Positions 583 through 25,720 of a stretch of DNA of 32,477 bases are shown here, piece by piece. The position numbers and the translations under genes were made by a program. Under the pieces are notes generated by a model. That model was not told the origin of the DNA. It ran no database searches and saw only the letters and a list, made by a program, of their open reading frames with translations. Position 1 is the stretch's first letter; every line of letters starts with the position of its first letter. This DNA is from Fibrobacter sp. (GTDB lineage: Bacteria; Fibrobacterota; Fibrobacteria; Fibrobacterales; Fibrobacteraceae), in contig JAILDK010000129.1 in assembly GCA_024689485.1 (NCBI GenBank), forward strand, positions 1-32,477. Direction: 5' to 3'.

Positions 583-1350
583 TTAAACGAACAAATCCGT
601 GAGTAAAACAGCCGCCATCACGAGGCTCGCCGCCGAAATAAAGCGCTTGATAAAGACATTCCCCTTCTTTCTCTGCAGACGGCTGCCGAGAAGCCCGCCC
701 AAGATAGAACCCGCGGAAACGCAAATCGCAAGTCCCCATTCCACCTTGCCGATCACAACCAGGCCCAAAGTACTCACAAACAGGAATGTGGACGTCAGCG
801 CATTTTTAATTGCATTCACATGCAACAGGTCATAGCCCGTATAGCGGGAAAGGGCAAAAATCTGAAGAAAACCCACACCGACCTGAATGATGCAGCCATA
901 GATCGAAACCGCAAAGAATCCGAGAAAAGCCGGCAAGGACATTTTTTCAGGAGGCGTCACAGGTGGCTTTCCCAAGAAATCCCTTTTGAGCTGTCCCATG
1001 ATCACCACCAAAAGAATCGCCAAAGCGAGAATTCCCTGAAAAATCTTGTCATCCAACTTCACCAAAAAGAAGATGCCCAAAAGCGCGCCCAGAAGTGTTG
1101 GCCAGAACAAGCGGAAATAAATCTTTTTGTCCAAAAGGCCATGCTTGCACATGCTGATTGCCGATGTCGTATTTCCGAGGAAAAGTCCAATGCGGTTCGT
1201 GCCGTTCGCCACGGTAGGCGGAAGGCCGAGGAAAATCATAATGGGAAGGCTGATGGTACTACCGCCGCCCGCGATGCTGTTGATAGCACTCGTCAGAATG
1301 CCGACGAAGAAAAAGGCGACGTAGAGATACCATTCATAGCCGAAAATCAT
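583..1350 (-). CDS. TauE/SafE (DUF81) family membrane transporter
   Basis: 255 residues, almost entirely hydrophobic, with about seven to eight predicted membrane segments. The N-terminal SAINSIAGGGSTISLP and ANGTNRIG stretches are typical of the TauE/SafE (former DUF81) family of inner-membrane permeases. Known members are linked to export or uptake of sulfite, sulfoacetate and other small organosulfur anions, but the substrate of this protein cannot be read from the sequence. Its ATG overlaps the TGA of the upstream lipoprotein gene by four bases (ATGA), so translation is probably coupled. It is the last gene of the PBP1A-lipoprotein-TauE unit. Family assignment is confident; substrate and any link to cell-wall synthesis are unknown. 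Confidence 0.85.
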   Translation of the reverse strand: MIFGYEWYLYVAFFFVGILTSAINSIAGGGSTISLPIMIFLGLPPTVANGTNRIGLFLGNTTSAISMCKHGLLDKKIYFRLFWPTLLGALLGIFFLVKLDDKIFQGILALAILLVVIMGQLKRDFLGKPPVTPPEKMSLPAFLGFFAVSIYGCIIQVGVGFLQIFALSRYTGYDLLHVNAIKNALTSTFLFVSTLGLVVIGKVEWGLAICVSAGSILGGLLGSRLQRKKGNVFIKRFISAASLVMAAVLLTDLFV

Positions 1351-2564
1351 TTGGAAAGTTCCGATTGCAAGAATTGCTTATTCGAAAGGACCGTGGCACG
1401 ATCTTTATAATCCGGGGCAAACTCAAGACAAGCGTCGAGTTCTGCGATTGCCTTGGAAATTTTGTCCGCCTTGTTCGCCTTTTTATTTTTGGATTCTGCG
1501 AAGAGCGTTGCCGTGCGTTTACGCTTTTCGGTACAATAGCCGACGTACACAGAATCCAGTTCACGCAGAGCTTCTCCGCGGAGGCCGCTCGATTTGAGCT
1601 TGAGAAGCATTTCTTTTGCGGCGGACCACTTTTTGTTTGCAGAAAGCTGCTTCGCTTCTTCGAGAGATTTTTTCGGATCGTGGGACTTCCAGTATTCAGC
1701 GGAAGCGGAAGATTCTTCCATGCGCAGGGAAGAAATTTGAAGCAGCGCCCTTTGAAGCTTGAGCGTATCGACAAAGTCCGAATAACGGAGAATCAAATCG
1801 GAAAGTTTTTGTTCAGCGGCGTCGAAGGCGGCCTTTTCGCGAGCAAGAGTCAGAGCCTCATCTCGACCGAGTTTGACTTTTTCAAAAGTACGAACGTAAG
1901 CGATGTGCGAAAGAGAATCCGTGATGCGGCGGATAGAATCGCTCGGAGCGCTTGCACAAATCGTGTCGGCAAGCACCTTGACTTCTGCGTAAGGCGCACG
2001 ACGCGAGTTCGCATTCACCATGGCGATTAAAAGCTGCTGCAAATCGGCATCTTTTTTCGAATATCCACTGCGGACTTTTTCGCCGATCGATTTTGCCTGA
2101 AACTGCCATTCCTTCCACAGAGGATTCAGTACGGAAAAACGTTCAACGATGGCAGCAGCGGAATCCAAATTCCCCGCCGCGTAAAAAGAATCAGCTCGGG
2201 TCAACGCCATTTGGGCGAGCCTTGGGATTTCTACGTAGATGTCCGGCACTTCGTTTGCAGGCGCCATCGGTTCTGATTCTGGCGTCATCGGTTCATTGGC
2301 AGGTGCAACCGGGGCGAAGGTTTCTGTGTTTTCGGCGGATGCAACGGAAGATTCGGAAGAAGCTTCTTGCGGAGCTGTTTGCGGAGTCTTTTGCGAGGCC
2401 GGTTGCGGTGCGGTTTGCGGTTCCGCAGGCGAAGTGAAGTCTGCGGACTTGGAAGCTTCTGCGGGTTCTGTCGGAACATTTCCCTGTGGAGCCGTTCCCA
2501 CGCAAGCGGTCAAAAAGAGAACGCCCGTGCAGAGGATTGCCGAAAAACGTTTTGTCAAATGCAT
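1347..2564 (-). CDS. Lipoprotein with Pro/Ala/Glu-rich tether and TPR-like helical domain
   Basis: 405 residues. The N-terminus is a lipoprotein signal peptide ending in the lipobox LTAC (lipidated Cys21). Val follows the Cys, so by the E. coli +2 rule it would sort to the outer membrane. Residues ~22-110 are low-complexity (Pro, Ala, Glu, Thr, Ser) with repeated AP/PE units and look disordered. Residues ~110-405 are helical, with TPR-like A/G-rich helix pairs (for example around ADSFYAAGNLDSAAAIVERF and ANKKWSAAKEMLLKL). The gene starts three bases after the PBP1A stop codon and overlaps TauE by four bases. I do not recognise an orthologue. Position and architecture recall the outer-membrane Lpo activators of class A PBPs; this is inference only. 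Other TPR lipoprotein roles, such as scaffolding, remain possible. Confidence 0.8.
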   Translation of the reverse strand: MHLTKRFSAILCTGVLFLTACVGTAPQGNVPTEPAEASKSADFTSPAEPQTAPQPASQKTPQTAPQEASSESSVASAENTETFAPVAPANEPMTPESEPMAPANEVPDIYVEIPRLAQMALTRADSFYAAGNLDSAAAIVERFSVLNPLWKEWQFQAKSIGEKVRSGYSKKDADLQQLLIAMVNANSRRAPYAEVKVLADTICASAPSDSIRRITDSLSHIAYVRTFEKVKLGRDEALTLAREKAAFDAAEQKLSDLILRYSDFVDTLKLQRALLQISSLRMEESSASAEYWKSHDPKKSLEEAKQLSANKKWSAAKEMLLKLKSSGLRGEALRELDSVYVGYCTEKRKRTATLFAESKNKKANKADKISKAIAELDACLEFAPDYKDRATVLSNKQFLQSELSK

Positions 2565-2567
2565 GGA

Positions 2568-5500
2568 TTAAAATTCTCCCGGTTCGATAGGAACAAAGGC
2601 ATTGTCGCCGGTAAAGTCTGCAGGAAGTTCAAATTCGTCTTCTTCCTTCGGAGCAGGGGCATTCTGGGCGGGCAAAGCTTCCGGCGCAAAACTCGGCATC
2701 GAAAGCGAAGTCACGATTCCCGTATTCGCTGCAGTCGCCGCCGCGGTTTCCACCTGAGCCGGAGACGTGTAACCCGGCACATCGAGAAGCGGGATGCTGC
2801 GGACCGATTCCGTTGCCGCATAGACAGGAAGTCCTGTCATCGGATGCACCTGAACTTCACCCCGTTCCGTTCCCAAGCGAAGCGGGATCTTTCCCTTCGC
2901 GAGCATCGAAATATCGAGGAAGTCCACCTTCTCATTTTCCTTGCGAACTTCAACAACCTTTTTAGCAAAGTCCGCCCACTGCGGAAGACCACCCGAAGAA
3001 CCTGCGATACGCGTTCTGCCGGATTTCAGCGGACGGTTATCATCAAAGCCCACATAGCTGCCGATGGCGATGACCGAATCCAAACCGAAGCCGTTCTTTT
3101 GCGGAACGAAAGTCGGAATCGCTCCGAGGAACGCCACGTTGCGGTAATCATTCGTCGTACCGGTCTTTCCAAACGTCGGATAGAGAAGCGTATTTTCTCC
3201 CGACGGAGACTGCATGGTGAGATTCTGATACTGACTGCGAGCGGTACCGTATTGGAAGACCGCGTGAAGCATGACCGCCATCTGTTCCGTGACCGTATCG
3301 GAAAGGACCTTTTTCTTTTCAATGGAATTTTCAAAAATGCGACGACCGTCGCGATCGCGAATTTCCTGGATGAGGCAAGGTTCATTCCATTCGCCGTCGG
3401 CGCACTTGTAAAGATTTCCCGTGAGAAGCGTCTGGTAAGCGGTCGTCATTTCGGCAAGCGGAATTTCATTTACGCCGAGAGGCATGGACAGCACCTCGCG
3501 GAGTTTTCCGTGAATGCCGATTTCCCCGGCGAACTTGGCGAACGCCGCCATGGCGACGGAGCGTCTGAAGTCGGGCCAGTAATAAAGTTCTTCCGCCTTC
3601 GAATAATCGATGTCATCACGTGGAATTCCCATCATCCCGTTCAAACGTCGAATGTCCGAAAGGTTCAGGCTGGGATACACTTCTTCATCGATAAGAGTTG
3701 TCGTGGCTGTCGGATCTTCTGGGTTCAGCGCCTTCAAGTCGCGATCCTTGAGGATCGAGAGGTAACGCAGGAAGTTGTGGTCGAAATTGGCGAAGTATTC
3801 CTTTTGAATCTTGCGATATTTTTTCTTACCGTTTTCGACGTTTCGACCGTAGAACATGTTGCGAAGAGCACGGGCCGCGGCCGGGCGATTTTCGTAGAGC
3901 AGCTTGTCGTAAAGAGCCTTTTGCGCCTTGGCGAATTCGATTTCCTGTTTGGCGGTTTCGTTCAAGTACAAGCCGTGTTTATCGCGAAGGCGTTTGCGGT
4001 AATCGTCAAAGGCTTCGTCGTCGCGCTTTAAGTAGCCCGCGTCTGCAGCGATGCCTGCGAATTCTTCGATGGAAACCTTGTCGAGAAGATGGTCCAAAAG
4101 CCAGATGCTCGAAATATTTTCCGAGCGGACTGCAGCCCAAAGAATGCTGACCGTTTCACCCTTGTTCTTATGATCGGGGCGCGGGAAGTAGAATTCATTT
4201 TCGTACTGGAACAGGTTGAATTCATTTTCGAGTTCATCCAAGTAGTGCCAGTGGTAATTCAGAGCGGCCGCATACAGGAGAGGCTTCCAGCTCGAACCGA
4301 GCTGTCTCTTTGCCTTAAAGGATCTGTCGTAACCCGTATTGTGGAAGCCCGCTTGGCTCGCCACGACTTCTCCGTTCTGCAACGCGACCAGCGCACCCTG
4401 CAAAACCGGTTCCGTTTCAACGAGGCACGGAACAGCTCCGTTCACCTTGACCGAGTCCTTCACACTCACGAGCAAAACGGAACCCTTAGCAAGACGCGGC
4501 GAAAGAACCGTTTTGACATCCGCATTCATCTGCTTGCCAAGATCCGCCAAGTCTGCAGCTCCGACATGTCCGTGCAGCTGACCAAAAGACAGATAGATGT
4601 CCGAAAGGTTTCCCTTTCCATCGTAATTCACCGAATCTACCGCGCCGTACAGATAGTCGCCGGTACGGGCAAAGGCGGCGCGGTTCGGAAGATCGGACTT
4701 TGGCAAAACGAAACCGCCGAGCTTCACCTGCAAGTTCGAAATATTATTCTGCACGGCACGCTTGGCAGCCATCTGGTAGTCCGCATCGAGAGTCGTCACG
4801 ATCTGCAACTGCGCCTTGCGCCAGTCCGAAATGCCTTCTTTTTCAAAAAGAGCCTGATAGAAATCGGAATCAAACTTTTCTTCGATACGTTCGAGCTGCG
4901 TCGAAAGCGAGAATCGGAAGTTGCCATGGTTGAATTCGAGAGGCTTAGCAAGCGCCGAATCCATCTGTTCCTGGGTGATGTAATCTTCTTCGACCATACG
5001 GCCGAGCACATAATTCAAACGGGCCTTGCCGCGTTCAATCGCACGGTCTCTGCGCTGCTGGTTCCGCTGAATGAACGGATCATAATTAAAAGGACCTTTG
5101 ACGGAGCCCGCGATAAAGGCGCATTCCGCCAGAGTCAATTCCTTCAGATCCTTGTTGAAGAAATACTGGGCAGCAATCGCCACGCCCTTACCCGTACCGG
5201 AAACGTGGAACTGGTTCAGGTAAAATTCGAGAATTTCCTCTTTCGAAAAATGCTTTTCCATGCGAAGGGCGTTGATCAATTCCTTCCACTTCGCCTTAAT
5301 GCTCCGTTCTTCACGTCCGTAAATATTCTTGACCGTCTGCTGGGTGAGCGTCGAACCGCCCTGCTGCAAACGTCCGGCGCGGATATTGTTCACCATCGCA
5401 CGGGAAAAGCCCGTAATGTCAAATCCACCATGCTCAAAATAACGCGCATCTTCTGCCGCCACGAGAGCATTCACGATATTTTCCGGAATTTCGCCATAAG

Positions 5501-5735
5501 GCACGTAAATACGGTGGTTTACGTCAAAAAAGGAGCCCAAAAGGCGTTCCCCGTCGCGATAATACACGCGGGATTCCCCCGAAAGCTCCGAAAGAATGTA
5601 TCGACGGTTAAAAATGCCGTCCGGATCCTTCGTCGGCAGAACGCGGAATACAATTATATAGAGGGGAATCAGGCACAGAAGCCCGACAACGAAAAACGCG
5701 ACTGCGATTTTTAAGAGGGTTTTCAAGAATTTCAT
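2568..5735 (-). CDS. Bifunctional class A penicillin-binding protein (PBP1A-type)
   Basis: 1055 residues. It polymerises lipid II into glycan strands (GT51 glycosyltransferase) and cross-links them (transpeptidase) on the periplasmic side. One N-terminal membrane helix spans ~8-31. GT51 motifs are visible: EDARYFEH (catalytic Glu95) and GGSTLTQQ (126-133), followed by the FYLNQFHVSG region (~171-180). The transpeptidase has S481-x-x-K484, S538-E-N540 and K857-T-G-T860. SxN and KTGT lie ~317 residues apart, against roughly 125-185 in E. coli PBP1B/1A as I recall; a charged helical insertion around 565-700 explains this. A Pro/Ala-rich tail follows ~985. The protein is longer than the usual 750-850 residues. 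It heads an operon with the TPR lipoprotein three bases downstream. The start at 5735 places the membrane anchor at the terminus; a clear Shine-Dalgarno sequence is not seen. Confidence 0.95.
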   Translation of the reverse strand: MKFLKTLLKIAVAFFVVGLLCLIPLYIIVFRVLPTKDPDGIFNRRYILSELSGESRVYYRDGERLLGSFFDVNHRIYVPYGEIPENIVNALVAAEDARYFEHGGFDITGFSRAMVNNIRAGRLQQGGSTLTQQTVKNIYGREERSIKAKWKELINALRMEKHFSKEEILEFYLNQFHVSGTGKGVAIAAQYFFNKDLKELTLAECAFIAGSVKGPFNYDPFIQRNQQRRDRAIERGKARLNYVLGRMVEEDYITQEQMDSALAKPLEFNHGNFRFSLSTQLERIEEKFDSDFYQALFEKEGISDWRKAQLQIVTTLDADYQMAAKRAVQNNISNLQVKLGGFVLPKSDLPNRAAFARTGDYLYGAVDSVNYDGKGNLSDIYLSFGQLHGHVGAADLADLGKQMNADVKTVLSPRLAKGSVLLVSVKDSVKVNGAVPCLVETEPVLQGALVALQNGEVVASQAGFHNTGYDRSFKAKRQLGSSWKPLLYAAALNYHWHYLDELENEFNLFQYENEFYFPRPDHKNKGETVSILWAAVRSENISSIWLLDHLLDKVSIEEFAGIAADAGYLKRDDEAFDDYRKRLRDKHGLYLNETAKQEIEFAKAQKALYDKLLYENRPAAARALRNMFYGRNVENGKKKYRKIQKEYFANFDHNFLRYLSILKDRDLKALNPEDPTATTTLIDEEVYPSLNLSDIRRLNGMMGIPRDDIDYSKAEELYYWPDFRRSVAMAAFAKFAGEIGIHGKLREVLSMPLGVNEIPLAEMTTAYQTLLTGNLYKCADGEWNEPCLIQEIRDRDGRRIFENSIEKKKVLSDTVTEQMAVMLHAVFQYGTARSQYQNLTMQSPSGENTLLYPTFGKTGTTNDYRNVAFLGAIPTFVPQKNGFGLDSVIAIGSYVGFDDNRPLKSGRTRIAGSSGGLPQWADFAKKVVEVRKENEKVDFLDISMLAKGKIPLRLGTERGEVQVHPMTGLPVYAATESVRSIPLLDVPGYTSPAQVETAAATAANTGIVTSLSMPSFAPEALPAQNAPAPKEEDEFELPADFTGDNAFVPIEPGEF

Positions 5736-11163: not shown

Positions 11164-12621
11164 ATGAAGATTTCCGTAAACGACATGATGAATTCGAGTG
11201 GCGTCGGCTTCGGCACGAGCGGCGCCCGCGGTCTCGTTACCAAGATGACGGACCTCGTGTGCTACAGCTACACCCACGCATTCCTCGCTTACTGCGAAAA
11301 GAACTACCCGTCCGAAAAGACGGTTGCGATTGCAGGCGATTTACGTCCGAGCACAGGCCGCATTCTGCAGGCTCTTGCGACGGCAGCCTTCGACATGGGT
11401 TGGAAGGTCATTTACAGCGGCCGCATCCCGAGCCCGGCGATCGCCCTTTACGGTATCGAAAAGGCTCTCCCGACCATCATGGTCACAGGCAGCCACATTC
11501 CTGCCGACCGCAACGGCATCAAGTTCAACCATCCGAAGGGTGAAATCTCGAAAAAGGACGAAACGGGCATCCGCGCCGAATCCTTCGAAGTCGAAGATTC
11601 CAAGTTCGACGACAAGGGCATGCTCAAGTCCCCGGCAGCCCTTCCGGCAGAAGATCCGACCGCCCGTGAAGATTACACGAACCGCTACATCGCCTTCTTC
11701 GGCGAAAAGGCGCTTTCCGGATTCACCATCGGTATGTACCAGCATTCCGCCGTGGGCCGCGACATCATCACGGACATTCTGACAAAGCTCGGCGCCTACG
11801 TCAAACCGCTCGGACGTTCCGAAACGTTCATCCCGGTCGATACCGAAGCCGTTCGCCCGGAAGACATCGAACTCGGCATCCAGTGGGCAAAGGAAGGTCT
11901 CGACGCGATCACCAGTACCGATGGCGACAGCGACCGTCCGCTCTTTGCAGACGCGACCGGCAAATGGGTCCGCGGAGACGTCCTCGGCATTCTCGCCGCC
12001 GCATCTCTTGGCATCGAACGCATTGCCACTCCGGTGAGTTGCAACACGGCCCTCGAAAAGTGCGGACTTTTTGACAAGACACTCCGCACCCGCATCGGAA
12101 GCCCGTACGTGATCGCCGGCATGCAGGAACTCGACGCCGACGGCAAAACCGTTGCCGGCTACGAAGCCAACGGCGGCTTCCTTCTCGAAACGGACATCAC
12201 CGTGGACGGCAAGACCCTCAAGGCTCTCCCGACCCGCGACGCCTTGCTTCCGCAGCTCGCCATTCTCGTGCGCGCCCGCAAGGAACTCACCGGAGTCGAA
12301 GACCTGTTCAAGGAACTTCCCAAGCGCTTTACCGCTAGCGACCGCGTCAAGGAATTCCCGACCGAAAAGAGCAAGGCGAAAGTCGCCGAAATCGCCGAAA
12401 AGAAGCTCGGTGAAAAATATTTTGGAAATCTCGTCGGAAAGCTCGTCGCCGAAGATTCGACAGACGGCTACCGCATGACCTTTGACCAGGGCGACATCAT
12501 TCACCTGCGTCCGAGCGGCAACGCTCCGGAACTGCGCTGCTACATCGAATGCGATACCGCAGCCCGTGCTGAAGAGCTCAAGGGAAAGGTTCTCGCTATC
12601 ATGCAGGGTTGGAAAGCCTAA
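11164..12621 (+). CDS. Phosphomannomutase/phosphoglucomutase family protein
   Basis: 485 residues, four-domain alpha-D-phosphohexomutase size. It would interconvert sugar 1- and 6-phosphates for nucleotide-sugar or glycogen metabolism in the cytoplasm. Visible landmarks are GTSGARG (17-23), the phosphoserine loop TGSHIPADRNG (Ser110), the Mg-binding DGDSDR (253-258), the sugar-binding segment YEANGGF (333-339) and the phosphate-binding RPSGNAPELR (449-458). The loop is TGSHIP rather than the common TASHNP, and the sugar loop is EANGGF rather than GEESGH or GEMSGH; both occur in one branch of the family that is usually annotated phosphomannomutase. Substrate preference cannot be set from motifs. 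The PorV/PorQ-like gene follows after only a few bases. Confidence 0.9.
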   Translation: MKISVNDMMNSSGVGFGTSGARGLVTKMTDLVCYSYTHAFLAYCEKNYPSEKTVAIAGDLRPSTGRILQALATAAFDMGWKVIYSGRIPSPAIALYGIEKALPTIMVTGSHIPADRNGIKFNHPKGEISKKDETGIRAESFEVEDSKFDDKGMLKSPAALPAEDPTAREDYTNRYIAFFGEKALSGFTIGMYQHSAVGRDIITDILTKLGAYVKPLGRSETFIPVDTEAVRPEDIELGIQWAKEGLDAITSTDGDSDRPLFADATGKWVRGDVLGILAAASLGIERIATPVSCNTALEKCGLFDKTLRTRIGSPYVIAGMQELDADGKTVAGYEANGGFLLETDITVDGKTLKALPTRDALLPQLAILVRARKELTGVEDLFKELPKRFTASDRVKEFPTEKSKAKVAEIAEKKLGEKYFGNLVGKLVAEDSTDGYRMTFDQGDIIHLRPSGNAPELRCYIECDTAARAEELKGKVLAIMQGWKA

Positions 12622-12640
12622 ATTTTATATGTTTAGACTC

Positions 12641-13558
12641 ATGAACTTCAAACATCTCGCTATTTCGACCGTTCTTTGCGCCTGCACCCTTTCGTTTGCA
12701 GGTGGAAAATATTGGAATGTGGACGAAGGCGGTACGACGATGAAGTTCCTTTCCATGTCCACGTCGCCGCGTTCTGCTGCCCTCGCCGGCGCAGGCGTTG
12801 CGACTCCGCAGGGATTTTCGGAAGTTTCCCGCAATCCTCTCGCCACGACATCTTCGAATGCGACTCAGGCGGGCATCGAACACATCGTCTTTTCGAGCAA
12901 TGTCGATGCCAAGCTCACCTCCGTCTACTTTGGACTTCCCTTTGAATATGTGAATACCAGTGCAGCGGTCGAATACCTGGGCTACGGCGATATCGAAGGC
13001 CGTGATGAAGAGGGCTTTAAACTCGAAGATTACGGCGCGATGGCTTGGGCGGTTCAGCTCGGCGTCGGAAGCAAGCCGTCCATTTTCAACTGGGCGCTTT
13101 CCGCAAGATTCGCTTCGCAGACCATCGACAATTCGACGGCAATCGCTGTCCTTGCCGATGGCGGTGCAAGCTTTAAGCTCAACCGTTATATTACTTTCGG
13201 CGCGACCGTGACGAACTTCGGCTGGGTTTCGGAATACGAAAGCGAAGAGGAATCCGCCCCGATGGCTTTGCAGGCGGGCATCACAGGCTCCCATCCGATT
13301 TTCGAGATTTTTGACATTGCCGTCCATGCAGACGCCTACCGCCGTGCCGACTACAATCCGGAATGGCGCTTTGGCGGTGAACTGCTCTATAAAAAGAGCC
13401 TCGCCTTCCGCGCGGGTTACGCCTACCGCGATGAAACGGAAAGCGGAATTTCTGCCGGTTTGGGCATCGTTTTTGGACGATTCCAGTTCGATTACGCCTA
13501 CGCTTCAAGCCCGGTTCTCGACGGAAATCACCTGTTCCACTTGGGCATCGGCTTCTAA
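12641..13558 (+). CDS. PorV/PorQ-like outer-membrane beta-barrel protein
   Basis: 305 residues from the ATG at 12641. The frame stays open to 12482 inside the preceding gene, but MNFKHLAISTVLCACTLSFA is a signal peptide, so this start or the in-frame ATG at 12629 (four residues longer) is preferred. The mature protein shows features of the PorV/PorQ family: an early MKFLSMSTSPRSAALAGAGVA segment, then alternating amphipathic strands, GFFY-like aromatic ends, and a C-terminal strand ending HLFHLGIGF. Family members sit in the outer membrane; PorV acts with type IX secretion in Bacteroidota and PorQ-like proteins occur widely in the FCB group. Whether it serves secretion here is unknown. A terminator follows at 13612. 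Confidence 0.8.
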   Translation: MNFKHLAISTVLCACTLSFAGGKYWNVDEGGTTMKFLSMSTSPRSAALAGAGVATPQGFSEVSRNPLATTSSNATQAGIEHIVFSSNVDAKLTSVYFGLPFEYVNTSAAVEYLGYGDIEGRDEEGFKLEDYGAMAWAVQLGVGSKPSIFNWALSARFASQTIDNSTAIAVLADGGASFKLNRYITFGATVTNFGWVSEYESEEESAPMALQAGITGSHPIFEIFDIAVHADAYRRADYNPEWRFGGELLYKKSLAFRAGYAYRDETESGISAGLGIVFGRFQFDYAYASSPVLDGNHLFHLGIGF

Positions 13559-23902: not shown

Positions 23903-25720
23903 ATGAAATCCAAAATGTCTTTTGCACATTGCATTTTCCGCGGGATCACCTTTGCAGGTCTTGCGGCTAGCGTCGCTTTGGCGGCATCCTCCAAGTCCGA
24001 AAAGAAAGCTCCGGGCGATTTTTATGAAGAACTCTCCCGTTTGAACAAGGTCCTTTCGGAAGTCAACCTGAAATACGTCGAAGACGTCGATCCGGCAGAA
24101 GTTTCCGAAGCCGCGATTCAGGGCATGCGAAACATTTTGGATCCGCATACCGCTGTTTTTGCCCCGAAGGATTATGAAGACCTGAAGGTTTCTACCGAAG
24201 GCGAATTCGGCGGTGTCGGCATCACGATCAGTTTGCGTGACGACATTTTGACGGTGATTTCCCCGCTCGCGGGAACTCCGGCGTTCAGCCTTGGCATTCG
24301 TGCCGGTGACCGCATTATGAAAATCGACGGCAAGGATACACGCGGTCTCACTCTCGACGAAGCCGTAGGAAAGCTCCGCGGTAAAGTCGGCACCGATGTG
24401 ACAATCAGCATTGCGCGTTCCGGCGTCAGCGAACTCATGGATTTCACGATTACCCGTGCAAAGATCGTCGTTCATGCGGTTCCGTACAGCGGCATGCTCA
24501 CAAAGGACATCGGCTACATCAAGCTCGCTTCCTTCTCGCTCAAGACCCGTGACGAAGTTGTTGAAGCAATTCAGAAGCTCCAGAAGCAGGGCATGAAGAA
24601 GCTCATCCTCGACTTGCGTTACAATCCGGGTGGACTTTTGAACCAGGCCGTGGAAATCGGCGAACTCTTCTTGAAGAAGGGCAACACGATCGTTTCGACG
24701 CGTGGACGCACTCAAGCGACTGAAAGCCGCGCCCGCAAGGACGGCATCGTTCCGAAGGATGTGCCGTTGGTCGTTCTCGTGAACCAGGGTTCTGCAAGTG
24801 CTGCAGAAATCGTTTCCGGTGCCATTCAGGACTGGGACCGCGGTTTGATCATCGGTAAGACGTCTTTCGGTAAAGGTTCCGTGCAGACGATTTTCCCGCT
24901 CGATAATCAGGGCTACGCTTTGAAGCTCACAACCGCCTTCTACTACCTTCCGTTCGGCCGTTGCATCAACAAGCCGGAGAACGGAATTAAGGGTTTGAAG
25001 ATCCGTGAAGAAGAAGCTCTTGCCGAAGAAGAAGGCGAAGAAACTTCCGCCGACACGACTGCAAAGGCAGAAGCCGATACGGCCAAGGTCGACACGTTCT
25101 TTACAAACGCAGGCCGCAAGATGTACGGCGGTGGCGGTATCACGCCGGACGTCGACGTGGAACTCGATCCGATTCCTTGGGTGGTGCAGGTTCAGGAACG
25201 CATGGCGATGTACTTCAAGTTCGCAGTCAAGATGCGCCCGAGCCTTGAAAAGAGCGGTGCAAAGATCGACGGTGAATGGGTCGTTCCGGATTCGCTCTTT
25301 ACCCAGTTCAAGGACTTCTGCTTAAAGGATACGAACTTCACGAAGATCAAGAGCAATTCCATTGCAACGCTTGAAATTCTTGAAAAGGATTTGATCCGCG
25401 AACAGAACTTTATGGGCGACTCTTCAAAGACGCTCACCGACACGACTTTGAACAAGCAGGTCTCTGCATTGCGCAAGGCTTTGGACGACAACCGTACAAA
25501 GCAGTTCGACGACAACCGTGAATACATTATGAACGGCATCAAGCGCGAACTTTTGACCGCAGTGAAGGGCGACTCCGCAAGCACCGCTTTCACTCTCAAG
25601 AGCGATGCCCAGGTGAACGAAGCGATCAAGTATCTCTCTGACATGGATCTTTACAAGAAGACCATCAGCGCTCCGTCCAAGGCTCCTGCAAAATCCGACA
25701 AGAAGAAGAAAAAGAAGTAA
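23903..25720 (+). CDS. ctpA: C-terminal processing protease, S41 family (CtpA)
   Basis: 605 residues. The N-terminus has a signal peptide or anchor (GITFAGLAASVALAASS, ~14-30), so the protease acts in the periplasm. A PDZ domain spans ~100-185 (FGGVGITISLRDD, AGDRIMKIDG). The S41 core has LDLRYNPGG (~236-244), NQGSASAAEIVSG (Ser299 as nucleophile) and FGKGSVQ (Lys324); the Ser-Lys spacing of 25 equals that of known Ctp/Prc enzymes. An acidic insertion (~367-397) interrupts the region before GGGITPDVDVELDP. A helical C-terminal extension of ~180 residues ends in a run of six Lys. Typical CtpA proteins are 400-450 residues, so the extension is lineage-specific. MlaE follows one base downstream. 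Confidence 0.93.
   Translation: MKSKMSFAHCIFRGITFAGLAASVALAASSKSEKKAPGDFYEELSRLNKVLSEVNLKYVEDVDPAEVSEAAIQGMRNILDPHTAVFAPKDYEDLKVSTEGEFGGVGITISLRDDILTVISPLAGTPAFSLGIRAGDRIMKIDGKDTRGLTLDEAVGKLRGKVGTDVTISIARSGVSELMDFTITRAKIVVHAVPYSGMLTKDIGYIKLASFSLKTRDEVVEAIQKLQKQGMKKLILDLRYNPGGLLNQAVEIGELFLKKGNTIVSTRGRTQATESRARKDGIVPKDVPLVVLVNQGSASAAEIVSGAIQDWDRGLIIGKTSFGKGSVQTIFPLDNQGYALKLTTAFYYLPFGRCINKPENGIKGLKIREEEALAEEEGEETSADTTAKAEADTAKVDTFFTNAGRKMYGGGGITPDVDVELDPIPWVVQVQERMAMYFKFAVKMRPSLEKSGAKIDGEWVVPDSLFTQFKDFCLKDTNFTKIKSNSIATLEILEKDLIREQNFMGDSSKTLTDTTLNKQVSALRKALDDNRTKQFDDNREYIMNGIKRELLTAVKGDSASTAFTLKSDAQVNEAIKYLSDMDLYKKTISAPSKAPAKSDKKKKKK

Follow-up and report, generated by a model that had tools for sequence, protein, structure and literature searches.

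Does the lipoprotein encoded directly after a class A penicillin-binding protein (PBP) in Fibrobacter control that enzyme? We analyzed this question on positions 1 to 32,477 (forward strand) of contig JAILDK010000129.1 from the Fibrobacter sp. assembly GCA_024689485.1, a stretch of 32,477 nt referred to below as the window. Its minus strand, on which all parts of the genes described below also lie, carries three genes head to tail: a PBP1A-type class A PBP of 1055 amino acids (2568..5735; Pfam, NCBIfam, motifs and Foldseek), a lipoprotein of 405 amino acids that is predicted to reside in the outer membrane and is a candidate partner of PBP1A (1347..2564; sequence and AlphaFold2 (AF2) model), and a TauE/SafE-family permease, here TauE (583..1350; Pfam PF01925, E=1.1e-38). 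Three nucleotides (2565-2567) separate the PBP stop codon (2568-2570) from the ATG of the lipoprotein gene (at 2564), which in turn overlaps the TauE gene by 4 nt. A terminator scan found no terminator-like site at the PBP-lipoprotein junction, and promoter and terminator scans of the locus gave scores no higher than those of shuffled sequence. Genomic comparison lends good support to a dedicated partnership between the lipoprotein and PBP1A. With roughly even confidence, we read the lipoprotein as a dedicated outer-membrane partner of PBP1A and, most likely, as an Lpo-type regulator of independent origin in the class Fibrobacteria. Activator function appears likelier than any single rival, yet is unproven.

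We searched 168 genomes of the phylum Fibrobacterota with each protein as query, requiring E <= 1e-90 for an orthologous PBP and E <= 1e-7 for the lipoprotein. The lipoprotein was also searched for with a 43-sequence profile, some of whose sequences come from these genomes. Families and genera of the searched genomes carry f and g numbers and the genomes themselves G numbers; the window belongs to family f1 and genus g1. A PBP orthologue was present in 120 of the 168 genomes (f1 107/111, f2 2/2, f3 1/1, f4 10/10). The lipoprotein was found in 115 of these 120 and in 0 of the 48 that lack the PBP, where no match was better than 3.7e-4. Among the five PBP-bearing genomes without the lipoprotein, three (G121, G128, G041) stop at contig breaks, and in two (G146, G056) the gene is absent or undetected. 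Since the 115 co-occurrences trace largely to a single inheritance and are not so many independent events, and the profile drew partly on the same sequences, their weight lies in long retention and gene order. Four f1 genomes (G068, G115, G110, G045) have neither gene; their completeness is 62-96%, so assembly gaps are possible.

Gene order was conserved well beyond the window. In 92 genomes both genes lie on a single stretch in the same orientation; 83 of these have them as neighbors spaced -23 to +196 nt, and in the remaining nine the spacing is 0.7-2.6 kb. The preliminary description of this DNA had proposed a check of synteny among relatives, and the adjacent pair indeed recurs in four families (f1, f2, f3, f4) of one class. 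In the f2 genome G042, for example, the lipoprotein begins where the PBP gene ends; its lipobox is LSGC, and its C-terminus keeps the conserved cysteine hairpin. TauE joins the pair in f1 only. As a control, we followed the four genes upstream of the window PBP, which lay upstream at 3-4 of 5 loci of genus g1 but at none of 63 g6, 15 other f1 and 11 outside-f1 loci. Because conservation of the upstream side stops at the window's genus, the PBP-lipoprotein linkage is not a matter of general synteny, and the pairing of the two genes is not due to chance. The genes are separated, with both kept, in the Fibrobacter genomes G061, G098, G101, G104, G076, G139 and G127, a retention that speaks for the partnership. 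In a group of Fibrobacter genomes (L111, L112, L114, L116, L125, L129), the moved lipoprotein gene mostly lies near a conserved protein of ~153 amino acids and a glycosyltransferase-like gene. In genome G112 the full lipoprotein occurs twice, on separate contigs (L180, L194), reflecting either a paralogue or a mixed bin.

The layout of the lipoprotein was described exactly in the preliminary account, from the lipobox, the tether of ~85 residues and the helical TPR-like domain to the 3-nt gap and the 4-base overlap. The signal peptide with lipobox LTAC (2502..2564; from sequence) predicts a lipidated Cys21 with Val at +2. A lipobox is present in every intact family member and Asp never occupies +2 in 105 relatives; lipobox and non-Asp +2 together predict an outer-membrane destination. 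Residues 22-107 form a disordered tether of 86 amino acids (2244..2501; AF2 pLDDT mostly <50) containing 16 P, 16 A, 11 E, 10 S and 9 T, and the tether spans 37-195 residues among relatives (median 97). It leads into an all-helical, TPR-containing domain at residues 108-405 (1350..2243; AF2 pLDDT mostly >90 over 108-404). A canonical TPR at about 113-150 emerged when the lipoprotein family profile was compared with consensus TPR proteins (match at about 113-148, E=1.6e-7); in the window lipoprotein alone it is weak (TPR_14 E=0.097), and one relative exceeds the TPR_14 gathering score. Toward the C-terminus, a helical hairpin (1428..1535; conservation and AF2) carries the invariant Cys344 (codon 1533-1535) and Cys379 (codon 1428-1430), whose equivalents are kept in 106/106 relatives and are the sole two cysteines past residue 30 in 70/106. 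A Cys344-Cys379 disulfide is likely because in the AF2 model the two residues face each other across predicted antiparallel helices (329-360 and 362-382).

The lipoprotein thus appears to combine the traits of Lpo-type regulators: a predicted outer-membrane lipoprotein, a long flexible tether and a co-occurring PBP with a dedicated accessory domain. The lipidated Cys21 would hold the protein in the outer membrane's inner leaflet and, by analogy with LpoB and LpoP, the ~86-residue tether would thread the peptidoglycan mesh. The TPR-containing helical domain would then contact the periplasmic part of PBP1A, stimulating or licensing the enzyme where the mesh lets the domain pass.

Members of the lipoprotein family are 15-88% identical to the window protein, with only about 15-20% identity between f1 and f3/f4 lipoproteins. 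Foldseek found no global fold match; the best of its 50 best matches was BamD (E=3.7e-3), with TM-scores of 0.14-0.20. The BamD family OM_YfiO (TIGR03302) matched below its cutoff (E=0.005, 16.4 bits versus a cutoff of 81.4). An hhalign comparison with E. coli LpoA aligned only 19 columns, all in the signal peptide, and comparison with E. coli NlpI aligned only 33 TPR columns (probability 3%). The preliminary description had suggested a structural comparison with Lpo proteins: no Lpo structure, LpoP included, was among the listed PDB profile matches or the Foldseek best 50, and what is shared is the TPR only. Because nothing beyond the signal peptide (LpoA) or 33 TPR columns (NlpI) aligns, the lipoprotein is, as judged from sequence, a new family outside those of LpoA and NlpI.

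The PBP is of the PBP1A type (PBP_1a_fam, E=2.1e-112, though under that family's curated cutoff) and carries the catalytic motifs SxxK, SxN and KTG. PBP1A crystal structures were its best Foldseek matches, ranked over PBP1B. A single scan of genome contigs with this PBP returned Fibrobacteria records only, the closest from an uncultured Fibrobacter (91% identity) and F. intestinalis ATCC 43854 (82%), with F. succinogenes relatives at 59-64%. The glycosyltransferase domain spans about residues 66-265 (4941..5540; Pfam Transgly at residues 68-247, E=2.5e-54). As the preliminary description had noted, the protein is enlarged, and the enlargement comprises two parts. The first is an OB-like domain at residues ~361-439 (4419..4655; AF2 secondary structure), the position of the ODD docking domain of E. 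coli PBP1A. It has strand-strand-strand-helix-strand-strand topology (AF2), aligns with the ODD region of PBP1A from A. baumannii and H. influenzae, and is absent in 14 relatives. The second is an alpha-helical insertion of 183 residues (~556-738; 3522..4070; AF2 helices and motif spacing) within the transpeptidase domain, between the SxN and KTG motifs. The resulting SxxK-KTG spacing is 377 in the window PBP and 336-414 across 119 members of the PBP family, against 179-189 in those ordinary class A PBPs of the phylum where it could be measured, f1 paralogues included. Across the family the insertion measures ~150-225 residues; ordinary class A PBPs in Fibrobacterota are without it. Pfam matched no family when the OB domain, the insertion and the transpeptidase were searched as separate pieces.

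Which of these parts might receive the lipoprotein? In E. coli, the ODD of PBP1A is the dock for LpoA (PMC3060616). A dock on the ODD-like domain was favored at first because g4/g2 PBPs are without it and the lipoprotein seemed missing there before the profile search. As a necessary dock, this domain was rejected: the lipoprotein is found unlinked in the ODD-less g4/g2 and adjacent to the PBP in the ODD-less f2. The domain is missing from the PBPs of f2 and of g4+g2, which occupy two separate places in a tree of the remaining PBP domains. Because of these separate positions, the ODD-like domain was probably lost twice, with the lipoprotein retained both times. The helical transpeptidase insertion is present in every PBP that has a lipoprotein partner. 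From this constancy we infer that the insertion is the best candidate dock; the ODD-like OB domain, with its two losses that left the lipoprotein in place, is a weaker one. The most specific version of this proposal, which we hold only tentatively and think doubtful, is that the lipoprotein docks on the lineage-specific insertion and not on UB2H or ODD. It would then constitute a further independently evolved outer-membrane control of class A PBPs outside Proteobacteria, re-used with an NlpC/P60 endopeptidase in one descendant clade.

Several results weigh against the lipoprotein being a dedicated PBP1A regulator of the Lpo kind. Genome G146 has a full PBP, followed directly by TauE, and has lost the lipoprotein; genome G056 has the PBP and no detectable lipoprotein; and in g4/g2 the lipoprotein is unlinked from the PBP and sits before an NlpC/P60 gene. 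Mirror-tree analysis of distance matrices singled out no dock: the lipoprotein-insertion partial r of 0.37-0.44 did not exceed the TauE-insertion control (0.40-0.58), and lipoprotein-ODD values were about 0 or negative. Because the TauE control was equally strong, the correlation is no proof of an insertion dock. The preliminary description had also proposed predicting a complex of the two proteins. We gave AlphaFold a natural in-frame read-through in tandem, joining PBP residues 330-1055 to the lipoprotein, with a 59-row alignment. By our own estimate, a pTM of about 0.60 corresponds to unplaced domains and one >0.7 to a confident interface. This crude run (glycosyltransferase domain left out, natural pairs few, no error matrix returned) reached a pTM of 0.58 with AF2 and showed no confident interface; it offers no support for one because that value is at the level reckoned for unplaced domains. 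The region L073:4882-8770 of G146 shows a natural deletion: the lipoprotein gene is cleanly gone, PBP and TauE lie 16 nt apart, and the PBP keeps both extra domains.

The second gene context in g4 and g2 brings in the strongest alternative. There, a shorter lipoprotein homologue, unlinked from the PBP, is directly followed by a same-strand NlpC/P60 lipoprotein gene (PF00877, E=1e-31). This arrangement occurs in G043 and G046-G054, is apparently cut by a contig end in G055, and in genus g4 is exemplified by L093:3396-4841, L090:3705-5119 and L089:3892-5566. The linkage was seen wherever g4/g2 contigs permit checking, is limited to these genera, and makes a functional link of the lipoprotein to endopeptidases possible there. 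With either a PBP or an NlpC/P60 gene as neighbor, the lipoprotein appears tied to peptidoglycan metabolism in both contexts. The g4/g2 context fits either an Lpo-type synthase regulator that was later re-used or an NlpI-like hydrolase adaptor near PBP1A.

As such an adaptor, the TPR lipoprotein would bring peptidoglycan endopeptidases to PBP1A without itself activating the synthase. We consider this unlikely, and a serious rival nonetheless because one ODD-less clade, g4/g2, has the lipoprotein before the NlpC/P60 gene. E. coli NlpI, likewise an outer-membrane TPR lipoprotein tied to the PBP1A machinery, binds endopeptidases, among them the NlpC/P60 enzyme MepS, and cooperates with PBP1A/LpoA while leaving PBP1A activity unchanged in vitro (PMC7049810); the gene adjoining the g4/g2 homologue is of the NlpC/P60 type, like the NlpI client MepS. 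However, the NlpC/P60 linkage is confined to g4/g2, and the constant neighbor elsewhere is the PBP. Homology to NlpI is restricted to one short, weak TPR-like stretch, and the top structural matches do not include NlpI. Moreover, a disordered tether of such length is characteristic of Lpo proteins, and NlpI is not known to have one.

Less probable still is that the lipoprotein serves another envelope system, as a BamD-like assembly factor or an outer membrane-peptidoglycan scaffold, and shares an operon with PBP1A and TauE merely for co-expression. The best, if weak, structural and NCBIfam resemblance is to BamD, also an outer-membrane lipoprotein with TPRs. Some Fibrobacter retain the gene away from the PBP, and the F. 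succinogenes envelope proteome is rich in TPR proteins, some assigned to cellulose-degrading complexes (PMC6851124). However, the likeness to BamD is one of shared TPR only, with no global similarity (TM-scores as above) and another gene context. Furthermore, linkage to the PBP is kept in four families while other neighbors change, the lipoprotein is missing from all 48 genomes that lack the PBP, and TauE falls outside the pair conserved across the class. A CpoB-like factor that restrains or times PBP1A instead of activating it is very improbable. CpoB likewise has TPR domains and reduces LpoB stimulation of E. coli PBP1B (PMC7267771), and the present evidence does not distinguish the sign of regulation; but CpoB is linked to Tol-Pal and, as far as described, is no tethered lipoprotein, and the tether layout is that of activators.

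Two further plus-strand features of the window were noted by eye: an apparent PDZ-containing C-terminal processing protease of the Prc/Ctp type at 23903-25720, and an open reading frame at 12482-13558, similar in its second half to a PorV/PorQ-like outer-membrane protein. Prc works with NlpI in E. coli.

Turning back to a regulator of the Lpo kind, LpoP provides the closest precedent, sharing an outer-membrane lipoprotein anchor, a long disordered tether and a TPR domain (PMC7267771, PMC7943195). In P. aeruginosa, the LpoP tether has 127 disordered residues and the TPR domain binds the UB2H of PBP1B (PMC7267771). In A. baumannii, a TPR lipoprotein was found beside the PBP1B gene and then shown to activate PBP1B (PMC7943195), so that there, as here, the lipoprotein gene adjoins that of a class A PBP. 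Lpo-like action is plausible because these precedents share the neighboring gene or the tether-plus-TPR layout. Unlike the present protein, LpoP acts on PBP1B via UB2H, in Proteobacteria, and its folded domain has ~105 residues versus ~297. E. coli LpoA resembles the window protein in being an outer-membrane lipoprotein with a helical TPR-like part and a PBP1A partner with an ODD domain (PMC3060616). It differs in that no sequence homology extends past the signal peptide, the ODD position is dispensable for pairing here, and E. coli lpoA lies ~230 kb from mrcA. The preliminary description had proposed an independently evolved or highly diverged Lpo-type activator. Lpo-like architecture, synteny and the enlarged PBP speak for that proposal; homology to LpoA or NlpI was not found, and f2 indicates that an ODD-like domain is not required. 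Its statement that no equivalent gene order was known outside Proteobacteria needs qualifying, in that the same layout is known for A. baumannii LpoP, a case within Proteobacteria.

Control of peptidoglycan synthases by outer-membrane lipoproteins is documented in the literature cited here for Proteobacteria only, and Typas et al. suggested that other phyla may use unrelated proteins for it (PMC3060616). The Fibrobacterota PBP1A-lipoprotein pair, with its partner-specific PBP insertion, would offer a specific and testable instance in which such control evolved convergently, in rumen bacteria for whose cellulose degradation the envelope is central.

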